From: a virus
IMG/VR virus record: IMGVR_UViG_3300036900_000158
Span: 1-47,818 of that record
Direction: 5' to 3' (one strand)
Length of the DNA: 47,818 nt
The notes beneath the pieces were generated by a model. The model saw only the letters and a list, made by a program, of their open reading frames with translations, searched no databases and was not told the origin of the DNA. The first letter of the stretch is position 1. Every line of letters begins with the position of its first letter. Shown one piece after another: positions 5,640 through 47,411 of this stretch. The position numbers and the translations under genes are program-made.

Positions 5640-6433
5640 TATAGTAATGTATTTTTAATGTAAGTTCTTGCGTTTATTATTTTAATCTTCAACAATTCAA
5701 GATCTTGCTCGTTACGATCGAAATCAAATTTGAAGTGTCTCTCTGCTAAAGGTATTTCAACGAAACCCTTAATAATAGTTGAAACATGTTCTTTAGATTC
5801 TGAAATATTCCTGAAATCTAAATAATCATTGAATGTTTTAAAGTCGTATACGTGGTTAGCTATAATCATAGCTTCAACCCATTCAGGTGTTTCGTTTTCG
5901 GGGTATTTGTAAGACTCTTTTCTTAATTCAGATTCGATTAAGCCCCACGGGGTATTGTTTAAAACATATGCTATAGTACAGGACTTAGCATTTGTAAGCC
6001 ACATATAGCCCTGCCCCTGCCAGTAATACAATGGCTTTAATTTCGCATGCTTGGCAGTTAAAAAGGTTTCTAAATCCCAGCTACTTTTTGTATCTGTTAT
6101 ATGATCGGCATTTGTAATTTCTTGACCTTCAAAAATATCAGGAGTGCCTTTTATGAAGTCATTTTTTAACATGACATCATTTTTTCTATACCTTTTTTTG
6201 TCAATTCGGCTTAAAACGGTTATCGAATCTTCTTCTGTATCATTGCCTTTTGTCAAATACTTAGATGTTATTTCCTTATAACGGTTATATTTTGTGGTTA
6301 TGAATGTTTTAAGCGCATGGGTTTTTGCCCCTTCGCTAAGGAACTCGCCCTTTAATTTAGGGGCAGTCATTAAATTACCTAACCCAGAGCAACGAAAAAG
6401 TATTTCGTTAACATCAATGTTATTTGATTGCAT
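5639..6433 (-). CDS. PD-(D/E)XK exonuclease of the recombination module (YqaJ/RecE-like)
   Basis: 264 residues. The nuclease core is visible as G96-T-P-D99, then D114-T-K116 (the D-x-K of motif II/III), then WQGQGYMWL around 138-145, the Q-x-x-G-Y motif of RecB/YqaJ-type nucleases. Partnered with RecT directly upstream (14-nt overlap), it should resect double-stranded DNA ends 5' to 3' so that RecT can load on the single strand. This supports phage recombination and replication. Family assignment rests on the motif order and context. Confidence 0.85.
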   Translation of the reverse strand: MQSNNIDVNEILFRCSGLGNLMTAPKLKGEFLSEGAKTHALKTFITTKYNRYKEITSKYLTKGNDTEEDSITVLSRIDKKRYRKNDVMLKNDFIKGTPDIFEGQEITNADHITDTKSSWDLETFLTAKHAKLKPLYYWQGQGYMWLTNAKSCTIAYVLNNTPWGLIESELRKESYKYPENETPEWVEAMIIANHVYDFKTFNDYLDFRNISESKEHVSTIIKGFVEIPLAERHFKFDFDRNEQDLELLKIKIINARTYIKNTLL

Positions 6434-40965: not shown

Positions 40966-41280
40966 TTAGCTCGGCAAGACTTCCAGGTAACGCATATTGT
41001 CTTCCATCTGCCTTTTATTTAGCATCTGCGGACCACTGGCGCCAGCCCTCTTATACTCCATGCACTGGGAGTGATAAGAGCCTTTAGATGAAGTTAAACG
41101 CTGAAATACACTCTTCGTAATCTTGTCATTCTGAACGTCTGCAAAACGAACGTTCATGAACTCGAAATCCTCTTTAATCTGCCGGGGATTGTTTAGCCAA
41201 CCTTGATTAATTCGCAATACAATAATATCCGGCTCTTGATATTGCTCTCCATTTCGAATATCTGTAAATTTTAATTTCAT
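40966..41280 (-). CDS. Hypothetical protein, 104 residues
   Basis: Alternating charged and hydrophobic residues, with 'PDIIVLRINQGWLNNPRQI' near the middle. Overlaps the repeat-protein gene (ATGA). No family recognised. Confidence 0.65.
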   Translation of the reverse strand: MKLKFTDIRNGEQYQEPDIIVLRINQGWLNNPRQIKEDFEFMNVRFADVQNDKITKSVFQRLTSSKGSYHSQCMEYKRAGASGPQMLNKRQMEDNMRYLEVLPS

Positions 41281-41816
41281 GACTCAATTGACTTAAGGTA
41301 AGCCTTAGCAGCTTCGAAGCATGCTCGTATCTTTTTAAACTCCTCCGTTCCGCGAGGAGTGGAATAAGTCTTATCTGAATCAAACCAGGCTTCCCAATCC
41401 TCAAGAGTCTTTTCTTTGCATCCGATTTTTATTTTACCGTCATGAGTAAAGCCGTATACCCATTTACATAATGGCATCATTACGCCGCCACGGAAATAGC
41501 CGCCAAGGAACTCGCCGCCAAGGAAATAGCCGCCACGGAACTCGCCGCCACGGAACTCGCCGCCACGGAACTCGCCGCCAAGGAAATAGCCGCCACGGAA
41601 CTCGCCGCCAAGGAAATAGCCGCCAAGGAACTCGCCGCCAAGGAAATAGCCGCCAAGGAACTCGCCGCCACGGAAATAGCCGCCACGGAACTCGCCGCCA
41701 AGGAAATAGCCGCCATTCCAGACTACTTGACCAAATCTATTATAATCTACATCGGCATTCTTTGTGTCTGCCATCACAAGCCATTCAGGCGCATTTTTTA
41801 ATTCTGAAATTTTCAT
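41277..41816 (-). CDS. Pentapeptide-like repeat protein (GG[E/Y]F[L/R])
   Basis: 179 residues. Residues 35-109 are 15 uninterrupted pentapeptides of the form Gly-Gly-(Glu/Tyr)-Phe-(Leu/Arg). Flanks are a short N-terminal helix and a C-terminal globular part ([20 protein letters not shown]...). A regular Phe every fifth residue is the defining feature of pentapeptide-repeat quadrilateral beta-helices, here with Gly at the usual small-residue site. Some such proteins mimic DNA (e.g. gyrase inhibitors), but the mixed Glu/Arg surface here makes that uncertain. It lies between a methyltransferase gene and a small gene. Confidence 0.85.
41484..41714 (-). repeat. 15-bp repeat array with two variable codons
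   Basis: Fifteen and a fraction copies of a 15-bp unit. All variation falls in two codons: TAT/GAG for Tyr/Glu and CTT/CGT for Leu/Arg. The rest (GGC GGC .. TTC ..) is invariant. The order by unit is YL ER YR EL YL EL YL ER YL ER ER ER YL EL YR. Confidence 0.95.
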
Positions 41817-43590: not shown

Positions 43591-44004
43591 CTACTTCAAG
43601 TCGGTTAGTTTAACGAAAGCAAAAGACAATCCCGGCACACTATTTTTTGATGCTGATTTCCCTTGATAGTCTGCCCGTATGCTCATTACATCGGTATTTT
43701 TACCGCTTGTGTTGAACGTTACAAAATACCCGTATGCCAGGTTACGCGTATCGTATGGCTCATACTTAACAGCGTTGTTGGTCTTAATCGTATCCTGTAC
43801 CCAATTGCCATTTACAACACGCTTCCAGATATACGGCACACGGTTAGAATACAGGGTAAATTTAACGAGCGTAGTGTCGTCTTCTTGGTTTAGGTTTGTT
43901 GTGACATCGATCACGGTTGCAGTAATTTGAGGTTGTGGTGCATCATCTTCTCCGCATGAAGTAAGAAGAAATGCGATTGATAAAGCGATTAGTAAATTTT
44001 TCAT
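43591..44004 (-). CDS. Phage-encoded lipoprotein
   Basis: 137 residues. Lipobox LLTSC at 13-17 follows a basic start (MKNLLIALSIAFLLTSC). After the Cys comes GEDDAPQ, an acidic stretch close to the surface-export signal of Bacteroidota lipoproteins, so it may be on the outer face of the outer membrane. The rest is beta-rich (TATVIDVTTNLNQEDDTTLV...). Phage lipoproteins often block receptors against superinfection; this is the likely but unproven role. Confidence 0.8.
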   Translation of the reverse strand: MKNLLIALSIAFLLTSCGEDDAPQPQITATVIDVTTNLNQEDDTTLVKFTLYSNRVPYIWKRVVNGNWVQDTIKTNNAVKYEPYDTRNLAYGYFVTFNTSGKNTDVMSIRADYQGKSASKNSVPGLSFAFVKLTDLK

Positions 44005-44213
44005 AATTGGTTTGGTTTATAGTTGTTAGTAAATTTTAATCCATGTACATAAAATTCTATAGGAAATTTTATGTTTAATAATGACTCAGTGAATTCTTTA
44101 AATGTTACATTATTGGATTCAAGACCCATATATTTTAAAGCTATATTCATTTGTATACAACCAATGAAGTCATTAAACTCATTCAATTTTGCAGCAGCTT
44201 CTTTGTAGTTCAT
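44001..44213 (-). CDS. Hypothetical protein, 70 residues
   Basis: Start at ATG 44213 (MNYKEAAAKLNEFNDFIGCI), 4 nt after the upstream stop; a longer frame to 44228 is less likely. Overlaps the lipoprotein start (ATGA). No family recognised. Confidence 0.65.
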   Translation of the reverse strand: MNYKEAAAKLNEFNDFIGCIQMNIALKYMGLESNNVTFKEFTESLLNIKFPIEFYVHGLKFTNNYKPNQL

Positions 44214-44217
44214 AATT

Positions 44218-44538
44218 TTAATCTGCAAATGTTAACTCAATATTTATGCCTTGGTGCTTGTCAATTACTTGTTGAATTAATTCACATGGAACATAACCAT
44301 AAACTGTTTGAGTTAAATCAGATTCATTTTCAGCGTAAGACTTAATCAATTCCTCTTCTTGATTTGGGAATCCTATTTCCATTTCTGAATACCAATATTG
44401 ATTTTTTCTAGGCTCACAGTAATGAATTTTAGAACCTTGAACTGAAAATTGAAATCCATCATTGCAAATGATTAGTGGTTTACATGGATATTCATCCTGT
44501 GGATTAAACGTTTTTAAATTAAATTCTGCTAGGTTCAT
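44218..44538 (-). CDS. Hypothetical protein, 106 residues
   Basis: Alpha/beta sequence with 'KPLIICNDGFQFSVQGSKIHY' near the N-terminus and 'YVPCELIQQVIDKHQGI' near the C-terminus, a pattern of small phage accessory proteins. Preceded by RNA motif copy B. Function unknown. Confidence 0.65.
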   Translation of the reverse strand: MNLAEFNLKTFNPQDEYPCKPLIICNDGFQFSVQGSKIHYCEPRKNQYWYSEMEIGFPNQEEELIKSYAENESDLTQTVYGYVPCELIQQVIDKHQGINIELTFAD

Positions 44539-44570
44539 AATTAATAAATTTTTGTAGTTTTTAAATTAAG

Positions 44571-44607
44571 GTCGGGTACTAGGAAATGAGCATAACCGTT
44601 CCCCGAC
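44571..44607 (-). promoter_or_regulatory. RNA hairpin motif, copy B
   Basis: Stem GUCGGG/CCCGAC (44602-44607 with 44571-44576); loop with GGAA/UUCC, AUGCU and UAGUA. Two outer base pairs differ from copy A by compensatory change. It fills most of the 80-nt gap and lies 33 nt before the ATG at 44538. Confidence 0.5.
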
Positions 44608-44618
44608 TTCTATGTGTT

Positions 44619-44825
44619 TTATAGAGAGATTATTTTATAATAAGAAGCATCTAAAAAAATTTGAAATGTATTTATCCCCATACGTTGAAGCATATTTTTA
44701 TCAAACCATAAATAATGTTCCGTTACGCGAGTGATTTTTACTTTAGTAGGAATCTCCATTCTTTCAGGTGAAAAATTTACTGGAACTTCAACAATTGATC
44801 CTTTTTTCAAATCTGATGCTTTCAT
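44619..44825 (-). CDS. First gene after the duplicated promoter, 68 residues
   Basis: Small beta-rich protein (SDLKKGSIVEVPVNFSPERM..KVKITRVTEHYLWFDKNM) of KOW/SH3 type in outline. It starts about 30 nt after the predicted transcription start. No family recognised. Confidence 0.65.
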   Translation of the reverse strand: MKASDLKKGSIVEVPVNFSPERMEIPTKVKITRVTEHYLWFDKNMLQRMGINTFQIFLDASYYKIISL

Positions 44826-44861
44826 AATATTTAGAAGTTTATCTGTTGTTGTTTGACCTTA

Positions 44862-44920
44862 CAAACATACCATACTATACGTTACCAAGCAAACATTTGT
44901 TGTAATATTTACTAAATATT
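44862..44920 (-). promoter_or_regulatory. Accessory-operon promoter, copy 2 of the duplicated promoter/operator
   Basis: TTTG (44890-44893), 20 nt, then TATGTTTG (44862-44869), an exact -7 match. The palindrome AATATTTA-G-TAAATATT (44904-44920) lies upstream. Positions 44876-44923 are identical to 8013-8060, so the same regulator should act on both promoters. Confidence 0.75.
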
Positions 44921-44935
44921 TTTTGAATGGGGTAT

Positions 44936-44970
44936 AAAAATAGCCCCTAAGCTTATTAGGGGCTATTTTT
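44936..44970 (-). terminator. Terminator after the isolated structural gene
   Basis: Perfect 15-bp stem (44956-44970 with 44936-44950), 5-nt loop, U-run. Begins 2 nt after the stop codon. Confidence 0.88.
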
Positions 44971-44971
44971 C

Positions 44972-45889
44972 TTATTCTCTTAGGCGTGTAAAATTCTGTA
45001 CGTATGGATTAAATGTAAGTGTTACGTTTGCAAATCGTACACCCTGCACCCATTCAGGCGAATAACTAGAAGATCGAACTACTTCTTTATCCCTGTAAGG
45101 TGTTGGATTCGTTGAATTATAATCAGTTATGGTAATCTTTCCGGACTGCATCATATCCACCCTTAAAAATTTATGGACCGGTTCTGGCATGGCTACAACA
45201 AACCATGTTAATTCTTCAACATCATCGTCTTTAAGCCATGTCATAGCGCCATTAGGGTACTTCACAAACTCACTTTCATTGGCAGTGGTCCAGTAGCCGA
45301 ATGTGCTGCGTGGTATTCTTATTGCATTAAACCAGTTTAAATTAGAATAGTCGTCAACCTTAATGTCCGCTTCTTTGGATCCATTTATACCATTTCTATA
45401 CCAAAATGCGTAAACGCTTTCCTCAGCCCTTTCATCGGTGTACTTCATTACCTTAAATTCAAAGGAAAAGTATTCAACTGAAGCACCTATGGATGGAGTT
45501 GCTTCCGATCTAAACCGGTATACGCCCTTGCCGGAAACAGATAAAACCTTAGACCATTCTATCTGGTATCCAATTGCTTTTTCATTGAATTTATTTGTAT
45601 AAAAACCAAATTCATAAAAAGTGCCGTATGTATCATCGATTAATTCTGCAACATCATTCCAAACTCCGGCAGTACGCTTTTGGATGTATATTTTTGCATC
45701 GGGGAAAAGTTCGCCAAAGAACCATATTACTGAATGCCGATCGTTTTTGCGTTCATCCGTAAAAGAAAGCTCTGCCAAGGCCGGCAATTCGAAGCAGCAT
45801 TCTAAAGACTTGTTTTCTATCATTGCCCCTCCTGGTTGCTCTGAGGTATAAAGGATATAAAAATCCTGTTTTATTGCCTGTCCATTCAT
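44972..45889 (-). CDS. Isolated structural-type protein, 305 residues
   Basis: Beta-rich and aromatic (KQDFYILYTSEQPGGAMIEN..FYEFGFYTNKFNEKAIGYQIEW). A C-terminal part carries 'GVRFANVTLTFNPYVQNF'. It reads like the tail-tip or baseplate proteins of Bacteroidota phages, yet it is an independent unit with its own promoter and terminator, far from the structural cluster. It is not a reverse transcriptase: no YxDD or other RT motif is present. Function unknown. Confidence 0.65.
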   Translation of the reverse strand: MNGQAIKQDFYILYTSEQPGGAMIENKSLECCFELPALAELSFTDERKNDRHSVIWFFGELFPDAKIYIQKRTAGVWNDVAELIDDTYGTFYEFGFYTNKFNEKAIGYQIEWSKVLSVSGKGVYRFRSEATPSIGASVEYFSFEFKVMKYTDERAEESVYAFWYRNGINGSKEADIKVDDYSNLNWFNAIRIPRSTFGYWTTANESEFVKYPNGAMTWLKDDDVEELTWFVVAMPEPVHKFLRVDMMQSGKITITDYNSTNPTPYRDKEVVRSSSYSPEWVQGVRFANVTLTFNPYVQNFTRLRE

Positions 45890-45911
45890 AATTATTTGAT
45901 TTTAGCTTGAG

Positions 45912-45941
45912 GCAATATACAAAAAGCCAGCCCTTAAAAAA
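45912..45941 (-). promoter_or_regulatory. Promoter of the isolated structural gene
   Basis: TATATTGC (45912-45919) with TTT exactly 19 nt upstream (45939-45941) inside the preceding terminator hairpin region. Confidence 0.45.
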
Positions 45942-45952
45942 AGGCTGGCTTT
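45921..45952 (-). terminator. Terminator just after the DGR template repeat
   Basis: 10-bp stem AAAGCCAGCC/GGCTGGCTTT (45943-45952 with 45923-45932), followed by U-run. It would end the transcript 18 nt after the TR. Confidence 0.85.
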
Positions 45953-45969
45953 ATTCATAATTTAAAGCA

Positions 45970-46040
45970 TAGGTGCGAACTGACATTCGTATTCGTGTTC
46001 GAGTTATCGTAATTCGAGTTCGAAAAGCTGGAGCCTGCCT
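45970..46040 (-). repeat. DGR template repeat (TR)
   Basis: A non-coding copy of the variable repeats found in the two genes just upstream. In the frame of the VRs it would read GSSFSNSNYDNSNTNTNVSS, with AAC/AAT codons at every position that varies in the VRs, the hallmark of a DGR template. Over 69 aligned bases (45970-46038), VR3 differs at 14 positions and VR1 at 17. All of the VR3 changes and 16 of the VR1 changes fall on the 21 adenines of the TR. A 41-codon frame in another phase also crosses it (45951-46076), but I regard this as incidental. Confidence 0.93.
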
Positions 46041-46083
46041 CACTGAACAATCGACAACTTTACAACGTACAACCATTGTTTTT

Positions 46084-46512
46084 TTACTTAATGATCAATT
46101 GATTTATTAAGTAATTTTTATTGAAGTGTTCCGCGGCAAAAAGTGCCAGATCCGGAGAAATAAACAAAAGGCGCGAACCGACATCCGTACCCGTGTACGA
46201 GTGACCGAAATACGAGCTCGAAAAGCCGGAGCCCGCCGGCTTTGACTTAGATGCGTCTACAAGGAACCATGGATAATATTTCCATGTCCCGTTATCCCAA
46301 TTTGGCTCCCAATCCTTACCACTGTTTTCTGCCTTGTTCAAAGCTTTAACTACATTGATCAGTATAAAATGATTTAACATGTAGTTTCTGAATTCTTCCG
46401 GAAACGCTGAAACGTCTGGAAGTTTGGCGGCATCCAAACCAATGTATTTGAATGCCGCCTCAACTGTTGTCAAAGACAATGTTTTCTTTTTTAAATCGAA
46501 TTTTTTTGGCAT
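46084..46512 (-). CDS. DGR target protein with VR3
   Basis: About 142 residues from the ATG at 46512 (MPKKFDLKKKTLSLTTVEAA), 11 nt after the upstream stop; a longer frame starts at 46545. The N-terminal half has 'LPDVSAFPEEFRNYMLNHFI', then 'WEPNWDNGTWKYYPWF', the VR (GSGFSSSYFGHSYTGTDVGS), and 'RLLFISPDLALFAAEHF'. From memory, this is a family of Bacteroidota phage proteins with a variable 'G.GF....VGSRL.F' region. No signal peptide, so it is probably cytoplasmic or carried in the virion. Binding role inferred from DGR biology. Confidence 0.85.
   Translation of the reverse strand: MPKKFDLKKKTLSLTTVEAAFKYIGLDAAKLPDVSAFPEEFRNYMLNHFILINVVKALNKAENSGKDWEPNWDNGTWKYYPWFLVDASKSKPAGSGFSSSYFGHSYTGTDVGSRLLFISPDLALFAAEHFNKNYLINQLIIK
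46168..46236 (-). repeat. DGR variable repeat VR3
   Basis: 69 nt aligned to the TR without gaps: 14 substitutions, all at TR adenines; 48 of 48 non-A positions identical. Confidence 0.93.
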
Positions 46513-46523
46513 TATTTTAAACT

Positions 46524-47411
46524 TTAAAGTGTATAACCATTCCACTCAGCTAAAAACTGACTTCCGCAATGTACCGCAGCTTTTGCGCTAACAAGCAAAA
46601 GGCGCGAACCGACGCCCGTACGCGTATACGAGTAATCGTAATACGAATCCGAGAAGCCGACGCCCGCCTTATAATCTGTTAGCCAAACCCTGTATTTCAT
46701 CTGGTTTGTATTATTAAAATCAGGAAACCAATCTTGACCGTTATTTTCAATTTTGTTAATTGCTTTAACGATGATCTTAAGGCGCTTATAGAAGCGATCT
46801 GAGCGATCTTCTGAACTTTCGCCCTTTACTTCATTATAAAGGTTTGGATTGTCTCCTGTGATGCTGCAGGCAATCTCAAAAGAGGTTATTTCTTCTATTG
46901 CTGTAATCTTAGATTGAAACAATCCCAATAAATACTTGCTGAATTCGGCTCTAAATTTCGTTGCAAAAAACTCTGCCTTTTCTTTCGTTGGAAAAACAAG
47001 GCGCGAACCGACATGCGCACCCGTGCGCGAGCCACCGTAATCCGAGTCCGAAAAGCCGCAGCCCGCCTGGTACTCCATCCAAGGCCAATATTTATATTCG
47101 TTTTTATCGTTATAATTTGGCTCCCAGCCCTCTTTAATTACATCGGCGATGTTTGAGACAATAAAAAAATCGTTGCTTGATCCCTCGATTTTGTTTTTTG
47201 GATTTGGAAAAGGGAGTGATTTAATCGGATCTATCCCTTTAATTTCGCAAACCTGTTCATAACTTTCCAGCCATTCCAAAACGCTTCCTGAAAGTTGTTG
47301 CTTGCTAAATTTTGATTCTAATTCCTTTTTTAAATTTGAATCAGTCGTGTTTTTGTAAATTTGTCGTGCTGCCTCCGGACTTAAATTGACGCATGCCTGT
47401 TGATTTTCCAT
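46524..47411 (-). CDS. DGR target protein with two variable domains (VR1 and VR2)
   Basis: 295 residues made of two copies of the same target domain. Copy 1 (~85-165): 'WEPNYNDKNEYKYWPWMEYQ', VR1, 'SRLVFPTKEKAEFFATKF'. Copy 2 (~210-295): 'WFPDFNNTNQMKYRVWL', VR2, 'SRLLLVSAKAAVHCGSQF'. The first ~80 residues are helical. A tandem arrangement of two DGR targets in one chain would give a bivalent variable protein. No signal peptide or membrane segment is visible. Confidence 0.85.
   Translation of the reverse strand: MENQQACVNLSPEAARQIYKNTTDSNLKKELESKFSKQQLSGSVLEWLESYEQVCEIKGIDPIKSLPFPNPKNKIEGSSNDFFIVSNIADVIKEGWEPNYNDKNEYKYWPWMEYQAGCGFSDSDYGGSRTGAHVGSRLVFPTKEKAEFFATKFRAEFSKYLLGLFQSKITAIEEITSFEIACSITGDNPNLYNEVKGESSEDRSDRFYKRLKIIVKAINKIENNGQDWFPDFNNTNQMKYRVWLTDYKAGVGFSDSYYDYSYTRTGVGSRLLLVSAKAAVHCGSQFLAEWNGYTL
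46599..46667 (-). repeat. DGR variable repeat VR2
   Basis: Aligned to the TR: 13 substitutions at TR adenines and 6 elsewhere. It is the most diverged of the three, perhaps an older or no longer rewritten copy. Confidence 0.8.
46998..47066 (-). repeat. DGR variable repeat VR1
   Basis: Aligned to the TR: 16 of 21 TR adenines changed, and only 1 of 48 other positions. Confidence 0.92.

Follow-up and report, generated by a model that had tools for sequence, protein, structure and literature searches.

Background

In the diversity-generating retroelement (DGR) of the Bordetella phage BPP-1, the spacer between the template repeat (TR) and brt folds, recruits bRT-Avd and primes cDNA (PMC12875486). 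Isolates of Treponema denticola carry target genes left over after DGR loss, the reverse transcriptase (RT) and the TR both being gone (PMC4891356), and truncated RT genes have been reported in the DiGReF set (PMC3521204). The phage and metagenome surveys that we consulted begin from the RT gene or require one before repeats are searched for (PMC6199706, PMC8008677), and another ties every target to an RT (PMC8144416), so that cassettes with a TR and variable repeats (VRs) but no RT go uncounted. We found no description, in the open-access literature that we searched, of recurring TR retention with loss of exactly the RT and spacer in several phages.

The locus described here lies in a linear IMG/VR virus record of 47,818 bp from a Bacteroidota phage, the whole of which record was analysed (the window). 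The record has no end repeats and each end cuts an ORF, so the record may not cover the whole phage genome. Joining of the two end-cut ORFs into one gene was considered and rejected, since the reading frames are not directly compatible and a search for homologs of the left ORF found none. All recognisable genes are on the minus strand and include those for terminase, portal, capsid, tape measure, tail proteins, endolysin, RecT, exonuclease, replication initiation and methyltransferases. A 179-aa ORF on the same strand (41277-41816) contains a long amino-acid repeat. Phages of Flavobacterium, Bacteroides, Cellulophaga and Polaribacter have the terminases closest to its own, sharing up to 41% identity with it. 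The best relative found was a 33-kb contig, G001, with tail-region proteins up to 79% identical; no RT was found on it, and no VR/TR repeats were present in the 20.9 kb scanned. The locus works, or worked, like a DGR, and the RT and the spacer, both of which define a complete DGR, are absent from it. Most likely this part of a DGR can no longer diversify by itself, and we consider it probable that the RT and spacer RNA were lost recently and that the variants are now frozen.

Template and variable repeats

The TR (45970-46038, minus strand) is a non-coding segment of 69 nt between the stop of gene B and a 305-aa ORF. Read on the minus strand from 46038 to 45970 it runs GCAGGCTCCAGC...TCGCACCTA and contains 21 A, 19 C, 13 G and 16 T. 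It aligns without gaps to 47066-46998 (VR1), 46667-46599 (VR2) and 46236-46168 (VR3), all on the minus strand. VR1 and VR2 are the first and second of two tandem modules in gene A (46524-47411, minus strand, 295 aa), and VR3 lies in the C-terminal part of the next gene, B (46084-46545, minus strand), which encodes up to 153 aa from a GTG start and has an in-frame ATG 11 codons on. Both products belong to phrog_11581.

The differences between TR and VRs are concentrated at TR adenines, which account for 14 of 14 in VR3 (hypergeometric P 7.5e-10), 16 of 17 in VR1 (P 1.6e-10, one non-A) and 13 of 19 in VR2 (P 5.9e-5, six non-A). Realignment returned the same coordinates, gap-free pairing and mismatch counts as the first-pass annotation, which had also proposed a test of the bias to adenine; pooled over the three VRs, 43 of 50 differences fall at TR adenines (P 9e-22). 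This bias leads us to reject plain paralogy, in which duplicated gene segments would have diverged without a DGR. The domain common to genes A and B does extend outside the VR, as paralogy would have it, but the TR is non-coding and its TR/VR relatives sit beside DGR RTs, and we give this explanation practically no chance of being correct.

At six TR adenines (positions 3, 10, 47, 58, 65 and 69) the three VRs share one and the same non-A base. The TR/VR differences at positions 58 and 65 are fixed across the family and are therefore not independent mutagenesis events. These two positions belong to the TR 3' segment at 45973-45981 (minus strand), which is AGTTCGCAC (SSH) in the TR and GGTTCGCGC (GSR) in all VRs. 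Most relatives have the same arrangement, with mostly SSH at the 3' end of the TR and GSR in the VRs. As with IMH*/IMH in BPP-1, this conserved distinction lets the 3' ends of TR and VR be told apart. The adenine counts as originally read had included the fixed differences as mutagenesis events and so carried too much weight; the conclusion is independent of them. When the six common positions were removed, the bias was retained in VR3 (8 of 8 differences at A, P 1.7e-6) and VR1 (10 of 11, P 2.4e-7) and was weak in VR2 (7 of 13, P 0.009).

The variable protein (gene B) was examined for the C-type lectin or Ig-like fold of DGR targets; its AlphaFold2 model has a pLDDT of 82 overall and below 60 over residues 101-120, beside and in the VR. 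A fold search gave no PDB match and returned only uncharacterised viral proteins. Neither gene A nor the TR region had a DNA or protein match among named phages, and gene A as a single-protein query had none among viral contigs. Relatives were reached only with an alignment of the three VR modules as query, which identified 70 contigs with related VR proteins.

Search for a reverse transcriptase

RVT_1 is carried by 58 of the 71 records tested, namely the 70 with VR-module relatives and G001, which has no VR gene. The layout of the relatives is constant, with VR, VR, TR, spacer RNA and RT on one strand. Among the 127 usable loci recovered with a TR-specific pattern, an RT follows on the same strand 0-511 nt downstream in 117; four of the others end too soon to tell and six have more than 3 kb without an RT. 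A second TR pattern added 15 loci, 13 of which have an RT match beginning 67-114 nt downstream. One of the remaining two has an RT match that overlaps the motif, and the other (L265) is without an RT, its motif reading on as VR-gene-like coding sequence.

The PF00078 and phrog_1423 profiles give no RT candidate in the 47.8-kb record, whereas positive controls for phrog_1423 score E values of about 1e-123 to 1e-128. A search of the window for an RT remnant by tblastn with 33 RTs of relatives produced chance matches only (best E 0.27). No RT of DGR type was thus found within the record, which may itself be incomplete.

An RT, together with a spacer and perhaps a second TR, could lie in a portion of the genome that was not sequenced, acting on the VRs from afar, in which case the DGR would still be working. 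The record is linear with open ends, VR1 and VR3 are clean, and a remote VR is found in G040, where the RT is at 41.9 kb and the VR gene near 8 kb. However, little of the genome may be missing, since structural, lysis, recombination and replication genes are already in the window, and the RT directly follows the TR in the 117 of 127 loci noted above. VR2 has also decayed, and a TR without its spacer RNA would probably be unusable as a template even if an RT were supplied. We therefore regard an unsequenced RT as unlikely.

Spacer RNA

A conserved RNA begins about 20 nt past the TR in the RT-bearing relatives. Its parts are, in order, a GCC...GGC hairpin, the run AAAAAA and another hairpin around GGCGTTGGTA; AAAGCAAAGG comes last, immediately ahead of the RT start. 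This RNA coincides with Rfam RT-17 (RF03020), matches to which fall just after the TR. RT-17 corresponds to the TR-to-RT spacer in about 80 relatives (for example, L116:3606-3724), most of the matches being just below the gathering threshold.

A covariance model, R1, was built from 39 RT-bearing loci, with the other RT-bearing loci held out. The held-out loci score 49-112 bits, compared to 4.4 bits in the window (45965-45874), and nothing elsewhere in the window rises above chance. RT-17 likewise has no match in the window between 45600 and 46150. By both searches, the RT-17-like element of the relatives is absent from the site that the spacer RNA and RT start would occupy (45890-45969, minus strand). 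The window is thus without the enzyme and without the RNA part that would recruit it. DGR mutagenic retrohoming, the process to which the first-pass annotation had attributed the repeats, is the correct history for the A-specific TR/VR pattern, and close relatives have the same repeats beside a DGR RT; with RT and spacer RNA absent, the window holds only part of a DGR.

Break point after the TR

DNA homology of the window to other DGRs ends at the TR 3' end. Directly after the TR is an intrinsic terminator with a 13-bp hairpin (45923-45952, minus strand), followed in the RT's place by the 305-aa structural-region gene (44972-45889, minus strand; phrog_12180), which shares 64% identity with a gene that G001 carries between tail genes. 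G001 also has a terminator-like hairpin before this homolog and no VR gene there. The break can therefore be placed between the TR end and the terminator, and the phage's own DNA starts right after the TR.

These observations bear on whether the contig is chimeric, the true DNA after the TR being spacer and RT. Assemblies do break at repeats such as TRs and VRs, and the end of the TR is where homology to other DGRs stops. Nevertheless, what follows the TR is a gene block from the phage's own lineage, homologs of the 305-aa gene and of a lipoprotein being close together in G001, and similar breaks occur at other points in other records. We consider a chimera very unlikely.

The block from the 305-aa gene to the lipoprotein (43591-45889) has its homologs between tail genes in G001 and is at the contig's far end, beside the VR genes, in the window. 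It is a rearrangement adjoining the DGR fragment.

Age of the VRs

Non-A differences between each VR and its own TR were counted over a 54-nt core, with 215 VRs of RT-bearing loci as the reference. None was present in 192 of these VRs and one in 20, and the maximum was five. The window has no such difference in VR3 (0 changes across 48 non-A positions), one in VR1 and six in VR2. VR1 and VR3 cannot be told apart from the VRs of loci that have an RT. Four of the six changes in VR2 are pyrimidine transitions at third codon positions, as expected of coding sequence drifting under selection. The higher count in VR2 indicates that it was left alone longer than the other two.

Taken with the break point, these counts suggest the following history. 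An intact ancestor of the kind common in Bacteroidota phages would have had one or more VR genes, a TR, the spacer RNA and an RT. Reverse transcription of TR RNA would have introduced errors at adenines, with the resulting cDNA replacing VR sequence in two small phrog_11581-type genes, a mechanism to which the observed A-only signature points. The spacer RNA and RT, now absent, would then have been lost, with the terminator and 305-aa gene found after the TR instead. Judging from its six non-A changes, rewriting of VR2 probably stopped first, and VR1 and VR3 may have been rewritten until shortly before the loss. Since a cassette with neither spacer nor RT should make no cDNA, the three VRs would now be fixed variants evolving by ordinary mutation. 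Counting against a loss are the cut ends of the linear record, the cleanness of VR3, as would be expected of an active element, and the likeness of VR1 and VR3 to VRs of RT-bearing loci.

Other cassettes without an RT

TR/VR cassettes without an RT were also found in L068, L115, L199, L239, L127 and L214. Their end points differ, which points to independent losses. L068 breaks at the TR end relative to the RT-bearing L054 (82% identical), the same kind of break as in the window, and the spacer RNA is absent from it as well. L127 is 99.6% identical to the RT-bearing L215 up to mid-spacer. L199 is 98.6% identical to the RT-bearing L167 up to the RT start, where about 1.56 kb is skipped. L115 keeps the spacer and a small ORF (phrog_19665) whose place in L116 and L117 is after the RT. 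L239, a Chitinophagaceae MAG of about 4.6 Mb, has a TR, two clean VRs and spacer RNA. Spacer scores with model R1 are 104 bits in L199, 84 in L115 and 59 in L239. Non-A counts are 0 and 0 in L199, 0 and 0 in L239, 0 in L127, and 0 and 1 in L115. L068 and L214 yielded no VR in the 54-nt-core test; elsewhere, the L068 VRs have 18 of 18 and 16 of 16 mismatches at A.

The phrog_19665 ORF, of about 95 aa, is located at L116:2379-2675, L117:53-349 and L115:3400-3681. Its product is a candidate accessory protein of these DGRs.

The recurrence of RT-less cassettes with clean VRs (L199, L239, L127 and L115), three of which retain a strong spacer RNA (L199, L115 and L239), could mean that such cassettes are non-autonomous and are served in trans by an RT that comes from the host, from a prophage resident there or from a co-infecting phage. 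This does not fit the window or L068, which have no spacer RNA. Nor was RVT_1 found anywhere in the 4.6-Mb assembly of L239, although this is a MAG, and L199 simply lacks the RT segment of L167, which is what a recent deletion would leave. An RT acting in trans is accordingly a quite improbable explanation for the window. We see a similarly slim chance that the RT-less cassettes of Bacteroidota phages are a standing, non-autonomous DGR class that spreads without an RT of its own and is rewritten by an RT belonging to some other phage or prophage of the same cell. If true, this class would parallel non-autonomous transposons that use a partner's transposase.

Three further records without an RT, L143, L204 and L265, were excluded from the RT-less TRs, because their TR-like sequence is inside coding sequence or continues into it. 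A TR-like sequence with the SSH end is inside VR-protein coding sequence in L143 (motif at 6250-6270, minus strand) and L204, and continues into it in L265 (9921-9941 and 10534-10554). It looks as if the TR, 3' end included, had been copied into the target gene in these records.

Comparison with known DGRs

Loss of the RT and spacer RNA remains our preferred reading of the window, and it indicates that the TR boundary is a point at which both can be lost at once. RT-less cassettes make two questions directly testable: whether shedding the mutator lets a phage fix a useful variant, and whether templates can be served in trans by a DGR RT. Non-A changes in the VRs provide a rough clock since the last retrohoming.

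The window has much in common with the DGRs of Bacteroidota phages that combine small phrog_11581-like VR proteins with a phrog_1423 RT (for example, L116/L117, L002 and L054), including the VR protein family, the VR-TR order, a VR-to-TR spacing of about 170-200 nt, a TR rich in N codons and the SSH/GSR 3' end. It differs from them in being without RT and spacer RNA, the latter corresponding to Rfam RF03020 in this DGR family, and in that one of its two VR genes has two VR modules.

Adenine-specific TR-to-VR differences and fixed 3'-end differences like IMH*/IMH are shared with the DGR of BPP-1, from which the window differs in having no RT, spacer or Avd. Avd (PF05635) is also absent from the five relatives tested. 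A stem-loop downstream of the VR is an efficiency element in BPP-1, but the family of the window has no consistent counterpart, a BPP-1-like hairpin following the VRs in 30% of cases compared to 22% in shuffles. The Treponema denticola isolates resemble the window in that VRs have outlived the RT; there the TR is gone too, whereas the window keeps its TR and has lost only the RT and spacer.
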